Source of the DNA: Brooklawnia sp.
GTDB taxonomy: Bacteria; Actinomycetota; Actinomycetes; Propionibacteriales; Propionibacteriaceae
Assembly: GCA_012517115.1 (NCBI GenBank)
Contig: JAAYVP010000325.1
Coordinates: forward strand, 1-37,779
Direction of reading: 5' to 3'
DNA length: 37,779 bases
Positions 2,781 to 37,747 of the stretch are shown piece by piece. The notes beneath the pieces are model-generated. The model saw nothing but the letters and a program-made list of their open reading frames with translations. It made no database searches and was not told where the DNA came from. The stretch's first letter is position 1, and each line of letters opens with the position of its first letter. Both the position numbers and the translations under genes were made by a program.

Positions 2781-3733
2781 CCGCCGACGGTGGTTGGGTT
2801 CGCGCGTTGGGGTTACTGGCCGGTCTGGGCGCCGACGCGGTGCTGGGTGACCCACCCAACAGGTGGCATCCCACTGCGTGGTTCGGCACCTGGGCGGGCT
2901 GGCTGGAGCGGCGGTGCTACTCCGATTCGGTGGTGGCGGGTGTCGGCTACGTGGTGGTGGCCGTGGCTCCGGTCACCCTGCTCGGGATGGGGGTCGAGGC
3001 GTTGGGACGCCGCTGGCCGTCGCTGCGTCCGGCGAGCGTGGCGTTGGCCACTTGGGCGGTAGTGGGTGGGCGCAGCCTCGCCACCGAAGGCCGGGTGATG
3101 GCCGACCTGATCGATGCGCAAGATCTGCCCGGGGCCCGTGAGCAGCTCAGTCATCTGTGTGGACGGCAGGCCGATGAACTTGGCGCGTCAGAATTGGCCC
3201 GGGCCACCATCGAGTCGCTCGCCGAGAACACTGCGGACAGCGTGGTGGCGTCGATCTTCTGGGGCGCCTTGCTGGGCGTCCCAGGGATGGTCACCCATCG
3301 TGCGGTCAACACGCTGGACGCCATGGTTGGCCACCACAACGAAAGGTACGAGCACTTCGGTAAGTGCGCTGCCCGGTTGGACGACATCCTTGACTTGCTG
3401 CCTGCCCGGGTGACCGGTTTGCTGGCGGGGTTGGCGAGTTCCGATCCGGTCTCGACTTGGCGGGTCACGATTCGAGACGCACGCAATCATCCCAGCCCCA
3501 ACGGGGGTTGGTGTGAAGCTGCCTGGGCAGCGGCGCTCGGTGTCGCGTTGGGCGGCAGAAACCTCTACCCGGGCGGCCGCGTCGAAGACCGGGGTGTGCT
3601 GAACGCTGGCGGGCGGCCTTCGGACGGGGTGGCCGTGCGCGGGGCGGCCCGGATGGTACGCGCCGTCACGGTGTTGGCCGGTGCCGGGGCGGCAGTCGCC
3701 TTGGTCGTCTCCGCCACCGTGCGGAACCGTTGA
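2777..3733 (+). CDS. cbiB: Adenosylcobinamide-phosphate synthase (CbiB/CobD)
   Basis: CbiB is a membrane enzyme that attaches (R)-1-aminopropan-2-ol or its phosphate to adenosylcobyric acid. The 318-aa protein has the family hallmarks: LGDPPNRWHPTAWFG near the N-terminus, ATIESLAENTADSVVASIFW, the loop THRAVNTLDAMVGHHNERYEHFGKCAARLDD, and the late block HPSPNGGWCEAAWAAALGVALGG. The track start at 2738 is too early. GTG 2777 gives a 4-nt GTGA overlap with cbiD and a sensible N-terminus. It is last in its unit and convergent with the cbiX operon. Its last codons (VRNR-stop) lie inside the first copy of a 32-bp direct repeat, so its original C-terminus may have been altered. Confidence 0.94.
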   Translation: MTADGGWVRALGLLAGLGADAVLGDPPNRWHPTAWFGTWAGWLERRCYSDSVVAGVGYVVVAVAPVTLLGMGVEALGRRWPSLRPASVALATWAVVGGRSLATEGRVMADLIDAQDLPGAREQLSHLCGRQADELGASELARATIESLAENTADSVVASIFWGALLGVPGMVTHRAVNTLDAMVGHHNERYEHFGKCAARLDDILDLLPARVTGLLAGLASSDPVSTWRVTIRDARNHPSPNGGWCEAAWAAALGVALGGRNLYPGGRVEDRGVLNAGGRPSDGVAVRGAARMVRAVTVLAGAGAAVALVVSATVRNR

Positions 3734-3752
3734 TTGGGCCCGGTTCTTGCAG
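3721..3752. repeat. 32-bp perfect direct repeat, copy 1 (spans the cbiB stop codon)
   Basis: The 32 bases beginning GCGGAACCGTTGATTGGG recur without mismatch at 3949-3980, 228 bp away. This copy includes the last four sense codons and the stop of cbiB. The 99-bp inverted-repeat element A lies between the copies, which suggests a local duplication or a recombination event linked to that element (inference). Confidence 0.9.
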
Positions 3753-3840: not shown

Positions 3841-3939
3841 GTGACCAGCTTCTTTCAGTTCTGCCCGGTTCGGCGCCGCCGCCACGACGTCAACCGCGCA
3901 CATTGGCCATCACCCGACGCCAAGAAGGAAACCCGTCAC
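3841..3939. repeat. 99-bp dispersed inverted-repeat element, copy A
   Basis: The left end GTGACCAGCTTCTTTC and the right end GAAGGAAACCCGTCAC form an imperfect 16-bp terminal inverted repeat (12 of 16 pair). The element is 99 bp and aligns without gaps to copy B at 17204-17302 with 74 of 99 identities by hand count. It sits in the 334-bp gap (3734-4067) between the convergent cbiB and cbiX genes. That gap otherwise contains only the 32-bp direct repeat and a 42-bp palindrome. No open reading frame in the gap looks real. It could be a MITE-like remnant or a structured bidirectional terminator. Confidence 0.85.
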
Positions 3940-3948
3940 CGTCATCGG

Positions 3949-3980
3949 GCGGAACCGTTGATTGGGCCCGGTTCTTGCAG
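3949..3980. repeat. 32-bp perfect direct repeat, copy 2
   Basis: Identical to 3721-3752, but here it is non-coding. It starts 9 bp after the right end of element A and runs nearly into the 42-bp palindrome at 3991. The tail that follows element copies B and C (ending TCCGGCGCA) is replaced here by this repeat. Confidence 0.9.
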
Positions 3981-9339: not shown

Positions 9340-9450
9340 GCAGGGCGCCAGTCGACCGGGCTCGTCCCAAGCTGTTGCGCTCAGGAACCACCGTTGCGGG
9401 ACAGCGTCGGAATCGCACCGACTTCGCGTGGCACCCCACCGCCGACCACA
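9340..9450 (-). promoter_or_regulatory. Cobalamin riboswitch controlling the cbiL-F-E-GH-X operon
   Basis: On the minus strand the segment contains GGTGCC, then AAGTCGGTGCGATTCCGAC, then GCTGTCCCGCAACGGT, the conserved core of class-I cobalamin riboswitches. GAGCCCGGTCGACTGG follows at the position of the 3' B12-box region. About 45 nt separate it from the TTG start of cbiL. That interval holds a pairable GGCCCT/AGGGCC hairpin just before the AAGGAGG ribosome site, consistent with translational control (inference). The core is clear; the outer helix boundaries are approximate. Confidence 0.87.
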
Positions 9451-17203: not shown

Positions 17204-17302
17204 GTGACCAGCTTCCTTCGACTTAGGCTGGTTCGGCGCTGTCACCACGGTGTCCTCTGCGCACGTTGGCCGTGACCCGACGATTTGAAGGAAGCCTGTC
17301 AC
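17204..17302. repeat. 99-bp dispersed inverted-repeat element, copy B
   Basis: The ends GTGACCAGCTTCCTTC and GAAGGAAGCCTGTCAC pair at 14 of 16 positions. Length is exactly 99 bp, as in copies A and C. The 32 bases that follow (17303-17334, ending TCCGGCGCA) match the 32 bases after copy C at 24 positions without gaps, so the conserved unit extends to the right. It lies between the convergent glycosyltransferase and HAD genes. Small ORFs here (17266 and 17285 on plus, 17153 on minus) have no coding support. Confidence 0.87.
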
Positions 17303-37648: not shown

Positions 37649-37747
37649 GTGACCAGTTTCCTTCGTCTCGGGCCGGTGTCGGTGCTGTCGCCACGGTGGC
37701 TATCGTGCGCGTTGGAGTCGCTGGGCAATGTGAAGGAAGCTGGTCAT
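37649..37747. repeat. 99-bp dispersed inverted-repeat element, copy C
   Basis: The ends GTGACCAGTTTCCTTC and GAAGGAAGCTGGTCAT pair at 14 of 16 positions and the length is again exactly 99 bp. The interior keeps GCTGTCGCCACGGTG from copy B (one mismatch) with small shifts. The right tail continues to the window edge (37748-37779) and matches the tail of copy B, so the conserved unit may extend past the end. Confidence 0.85.

Follow-up and report, generated by a model that had tools for sequence, protein, structure and literature searches.

The stretch of Brooklawnia sp. DNA analysed here, called the window (37,779 nucleotides), carries three copies of a short element bounded by inverted arms, each exactly 99 bp long and lying where the first-pass annotation of this DNA had placed it. 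These copies and a direct repeat around the first of them are as follows.

3841..3939, + strand: element A, 99 bp, arms at 3841-3856 and 3924-3939
17204..17302, + strand: element B, 99 bp, arms at 17204-17219 and 17287-17302
37649..37747, + strand: element C, 99 bp, arms at 37649-37664 and 37732-37747, at the contig end and continuing in contig C425
3706..3980, + strand: 47-nt direct repeat (91%) around element A, copies at 3706-3752 and 3934-3980

Element A stands between the convergent genes for CobD/CbiB (+) and for a CbiX/NAD-binding cobalamin protein (-), while element B has a glycosyltransferase gene (+) on one side and a HAD hydrolase gene (-) on the other. At element C the contig end (37639-37779) is a 141-bp identical overlap with contig C425, and the break there is an assembly break at a repeat. 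The agreement of A and B at 74 of 99 positions was reproduced; B and C agree at 53 positions and A and C at 44, and the 32-bp right tail said to be shared by B and C comes down to agreement at 24 of 32 positions. The 16-bp inverted repeats are imperfect, as had been described, with arms that match at 12/16 positions in A and at 14/16 in both B and C. With up to three mismatches allowed, the arm pattern occurs nine times in the window against 0.61 expected, a number reached in none of 100 shuffles. The right copy of the 47-nt repeat begins within the right arm of element A. A cobalamin riboswitch, just above the Rfam cut-off, lies at 9356-9422 (-) within the cobalamin gene region.

The family is real and larger than the three copies first counted. 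A search of the whole genome for more copies, proposed by the first-pass annotation as a check, found them: the genome of origin (G000, a draft of 2.88 Mb in 446 contigs) yields 32 listed pairs of arms, 31 of them unique, since the 141-bp overlap divides a single locus into C40:37649 and C425:11, and a near-complete relative from the same genus (G001) has 31 paired-arm units. The drifting interior noted for A, B and C is that of one expanded subfamily, which is recovered with copy B as query against all of G000 (16 matches at E<1e-6). A search with nothing but the arm pattern adds many pairs in G000 with interiors unrelated to those of A to C (about 10 pairs), and interiors across G000 pairs are not generally conserved. 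The constant part of the units is the inverted pair of 16-bp arms, GTGACNNNNTTCCTTC, in which GTGAC-N4-TTCCT is invariant in both genomes, usually with C before it and TC after it; the G001 arms are longer (CGTGACNNAGTTCCTTCAAATTT). The length that had seemed fixed is 99 or 100 bp in G000 but also 97 and 119 bp, the total range being 97-119 bp there and 87-118 bp in G001. With at most one mismatch, arm sites number 69 for G000 and 72 for G001, against 4 and 5 for the reversed-pattern control, and every exact arm in the near-complete G001 sits in a pair of about 100 bp. In 197 other genomes of the bacterial family the G000/G001 pair pattern does not occur, and neither GTDB 220 nor viral contigs gave a match to these arms, as expected if the arms are lineage-specific.

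The units are nearly all intergenic, the exceptions being one G001 unit near dnaX, which overlaps a 5' extension in the gene calls, and some G000 units at called gene ends. With gene orientation taken from a simple purpose-made gene caller, the G001 sites fall between convergent (14), co-directional (11) and divergent (7) genes. The genes next to them are unrelated housekeeping genes, and a regulon was rejected on this ground. A chimeric query traced 17 genes that flank G001 units to their orthologs in G000. In six neighbourhoods (PNPase/DapB, FtsH/MshC-like, RsmI/PMT and others) the genes are adjacent in both genomes, and there G001 has an element and G000 has none; such empty sites, which the first-pass annotation had suggested looking for, indicate that units come and go. 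Within G000, C344:13127 and element A are 97% identical across exactly the unit and have unrelated flanks, C344:12964 and C344:13127 are 95% identical over the unit, and C15:5086 matches element B at 86.5% over the unit; the agreement of these copies is limited to the unit, with 4-6 bp extra on one side. These alignments show that some G000 copies are moved or converted as separate units, and no target duplication accompanies this. The earlier statement that no target-site duplication is visible also holds for G001, where the identity of left and right flanks over 2-12 bp is the same as for shuffled pairs; one G000 copy has the 47-nt repeat described above. Other G000 copies lie in larger repeats or tandem arrays (C31, C250). 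Around about ten subfamily copies there is also an intergenic repeat of roughly 400-600 bp (G000 contigs C142, C327, C331, C374, C42, C307, C176, C234 and C270).

Other candidates were rejected as well. Integron attC-like cassettes were ruled out because the elements are scattered among core genes, the only arrays being a few tandem repeats in G000, and a replication-oriented motif because core orientation in the units has no consistent relation to GC skew. RIT recombinases were ruled out because the G000 trios lack these arms and have ends of their own, and no G001 arm match falls in a trio. About five RIT-like trios of adjacent tyrosine recombinases occur in G000 (C249, two in C380, C158 and C241), some with palindromic ends.

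The lengths of the G001 units follow helical steps of about 10.5 bp: 87 bp (one unit), 97-98 bp (11), 107-108 bp (19) and 118 bp (one). An unconstrained motif search of the G001 interiors returned an asymmetric 18-bp core, RGCRTYTNCCTAGTCRS, with a log-likelihood of 190 against 72-79 for shuffled interiors. Among the 28 units with a clear or moderate core score, 27 have the start of the core 43 bp inside one outer end and one has it 44 bp inside; the remaining units score weakly. Towards the other end the core leaves 36, 46-47 or 57 bp. The G001 core is not seen in G000, where nothing convincing was found. G001 also shows a weak AC at +15/+16, symmetric in the outward direction. Complementarity of the 4-bp arm spacer (N4) stays at chance level in G000 (p 0.66), and a weak signal appears in G001 (p 0.017). 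Of 42 deviations within the arms, a single one is compensated. Taken together, the length steps, the core offset and the near lack of N4 covariation point to a protein acting on looped double-stranded DNA and not to an RNA. In a more distant genome (G003), elements such as C1:864141-864227 and 970533-970619 share a palindromic core, TTGGATCGATCCAA, at a fixed offset, which suggests that cores may be lineage-specific too.

One gene with elements on its two flanks encodes a DUF559 protein, and its neighbourhood stood out among the element sites. In G001 the order is a menD-like TPP-enzyme gene, an element, the DUF559 gene, an element and an RNase H-like gene. In G000 the menD-like and RNase H-like genes have a single element between them, and the DUF559 ortholog has another locus, with orn and Ku as its neighbours and an element on both sides; the upstream element is about 64 bp from the DUF559 start codon in both genomes. 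The GTGAC-TTCCTTC pair is absent from three other genomes, G002, G003 and G006, despite DUF559 orthologs there, and DUF559 was for this reason first set aside as a partner; the flanks of those orthologs then proved to carry different arms, GTGMCNNNTCTTCTTC in G002/G003 and GTGCRAAACCTTCC in G006. DUF559 orthologs are thus bracketed by elements in four lineages (G000, G001, G002/G003 and G006) that differ in both locus and arm sequence. A second DUF559 gene of G001, a paralog (L158:1344-2457, on C1), has 77-bp pairs on both flanks, and these use a third arm, GRRTCGGGATSTCGT.

All four orthologs match PF04480 (DUF559) above the cut-off at their C-terminus, and an N-terminal match to AbiEi_4 is sub-threshold, suggesting a weak AbiEi-like HTH. 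PDB matches are to the nuclease-like 3hrl (E 0.002) and, weakly, to the mobile-intron protein 3r3p (E 0.84). Residues E186, D217, E228, D230 and D244 are conserved at 88-98% among 49 relatives, and this conservation makes it likely that the protein is an active nuclease. A structure prediction from the single sequence (AlphaFold, without alignment) gave a pLDDT of 33. To our knowledge, no function has been established for DUF559/HTH genes of this kind.

Within the bacterial family, 134 of 199 genomes, from 26 of 29 genera, have such genes, often with several in one genome. With the four orthologs left out, 12 of 51 DUF559 relatives have pairs with the same arm on both sides of the gene, compared with none of 200 control genes, and 22 of 51 have a strong pair (15/16 or better) on either side, compared with 5 of 200; the control genes all come from G003 and G006, so that differences in composition are not fully controlled in these comparisons. 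In the other 39 relatives no same-arm pair was detected on both sides, and pairs there may be diverged or absent. In five genomes (G003, G006, G012, G030 and G054), scanned over slices of 200-600 kb each, the arm that flanks the nuclease gene recurs in dispersed pairs away from it, of 87 bp in G003, 86-87 bp in G006, 59 bp in G030, 63 bp in G054 and 54 bp in G012; none of the G003 pairs lies within the first 400 kb of that genome. The dispersed pairs are all intergenic (20/20), reversed-pattern controls give 0-1 arm sites, and the matrix of arms by genomes is strictly diagonal, each arm occurring in its own genome only. Searches of viral and phage collections returned no relatives of the DUF559 protein; a relative on a Tsukamurella plasmid lacks a clear pair at its flanks.

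In its logic, REPIN/RAYT comes closest to this system; in it, intergenic inverted-repeat doublets of several families are served in trans by single-copy genes with adjoining elements, without a self-mobile parent (PMC3116915). The elements described here resemble REPINs in these respects, and likewise have two short inverted repeats, a variable spacer and dispersal between genes. However, REPIN repeats are palindromes with a GTAG or CGTC head, and the arm consensus CGTGACNNNNTTCCTTC has neither the palindrome nor such a head; the enzyme here would be a PD-(D/E)XK DUF559 protein with a gene bracketed on both sides; and the G001 units add helical length steps and a fixed core. Y1 tyrosine transposases (RAYT, PF01797) were found in none of the eight genus genomes, in which controls were detected. 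On these parts membership in REPIN/RAYT fails, and the RAYT and DUF559 enzymes are unrelated. MITEs are likewise non-coding, intergenic, about 100 bp long and bounded by inverted ends (PMC10969869), but here target duplication (in G001) and an autonomous parent are missing and interiors are mostly unrelated. The C-terminal nuclease domain is common to Vsr/EDxHD nucleases and other DUF559 proteins (3hrl, 3r3p, Caulobacter VsrA), of which 3r3p is a mobile-intron protein and VsrA has a proposed role in very-short-patch mismatch repair (PMC12907096); the open-access papers searched describe no link from DUF559 to paired-arm elements. Internal eliminated sequences of Paramecium are also short, with conserved ends, decayed interiors and a length periodicity of about 10 bp that is explained by DNA looping (PMC3464196), but they are eukaryotic and are excised in development by a transpososome-like complex. 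In the open-access literature we found no paper that brings DUF559 together with inverted repeats, and a prior description may exist elsewhere; no element family is known to us that combines these parts, even though the logic resembles REPIN/RAYT.

A partnership between the elements and DUF559 genes is strongly supported by the genomic comparisons. The DUF559 nuclease probably recognises the elements and spreads them, and we hold the reading as a whole, in which arm pairs are recognised and dispersed by this nuclease in a REPIN/RAYT-like way, to be moderately likely. The units would be short non-autonomous elements, with each inverted arm a putative protein-binding half-site and a spacer whose length depends on DNA geometry; in G001 an asymmetric core lies close to the centre. 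The arms would be recognised by the DUF559-family protein, which joins a putative N-terminal AbiEi-like HTH to a Vsr-type PD-(D/E)XK nuclease at the C-terminus, and the gene, itself between two elements, would move with them. The nuclease, probably dimeric and seated on a short loop of DNA that places both arms on the same helix face, would nick or cut at or near an element, and repair or strand transfer would copy the unit to new intergenic sites without canonical target duplication. Nuclease and arms would change together in each lineage, giving every genome its own arm. The sequences themselves establish the two-armed elements and their geometry, their copying or conversion as units, and their association with DUF559 genes through genome-specific arms; arm binding, cutting and mobilisation by DUF559 are the parts that we infer. 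Against this reading stand the 39 of 51 relatives in which no same-arm pair was detected on both sides, the absence of the G001 core from G000, and the lack of target duplication in G001; no insertion in progress was seen. A nuclease without a known strand-transfer domain may be insufficient for transposition, and a partner may be missing from this scheme.

Helical phasing and a fixed core offset are also typical of nucleoprotein loops, and the units might instead serve the DUF559/HTH protein as operators or architecture sites across the chromosome, involved in looping, insulation or autoregulation and copied by ordinary recombination. The weak similarity to the HTH of AbiEi antitoxins and the element upstream of the nuclease gene itself agree with such a role, but 14 G001 sites are flanked by convergent genes, a setting in which a promoter is not expected, the neighbouring genes make no regulon, G000 and G001 do not share the positions of their units, and near-identical units sit within unrelated flanks; we consider this explanation unlikely. 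Somewhat less likely still is that the nuclease cuts DNA that lacks (or carries) the element and that repair copies the element-nuclease unit, either as a gene-drive-like homing system or as a defence that marks self. The Vsr/EDxHD-type fold, with its weak match to a mobile-intron protein, and the presence of the element-gene-element unit at different loci in G000 and G001 would fit, but homing spreads to allelic sites and the units here are copied without flank homology.

The first-pass annotation had offered two options, a miniature element moved by a transposase in trans or a structured RNA or terminator. The former is the better of the two given discrete copying and empty sites, but its transposase did not materialise: none with matching ends was found. 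That the units are MITEs of the ordinary kind, moved by some DDE or tyrosine transposase, with the DUF559 gene as a passenger, is suggested by their short intergenic form with inverted-repeat ends and by the richness of G000 in tyrosine recombinases; we judge it improbable, since no autonomous copy has these ends (the exact G001 arms are all in pairs of about 100 bp), G001 shows no target duplication, and the supposed passenger belongs to the same gene family, with matching arms, in many genera. An RNA or terminator is the least credible of these explanations, to be given hardly any weight: the arms could form a long stem and many sites are at gene 3' ends, but the near absence of compensated arm deviations, spacer complementarity that is at chance in G000 and weak in G001, lengths that track the DNA helical repeat, the seven G001 sites between divergent genes and the lack of any Rfam match to the elements all argue against it.

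The DUF559 reading would extend beyond this genus. That a large group of actinobacterial DUF559 nucleases makes up a new class of systems, selfish or domesticated, in which each nuclease maintains and spreads a private set of two-armed elements by way of a short DNA loop and arm recognition co-evolves with the protein, as a counterpart of REPIN/RAYT built on a restriction-type nuclease fold, is a proposal on which we see the balance as even. The link to private element families gives DUF559 proteins a testable role, and suggests that REPIN-like populations have evolved with an unrelated enzyme. The many natural pairs of arm and protein would be material for decoding DNA recognition, and the helical length steps amount to a natural helical-twist experiment in a bacterium.
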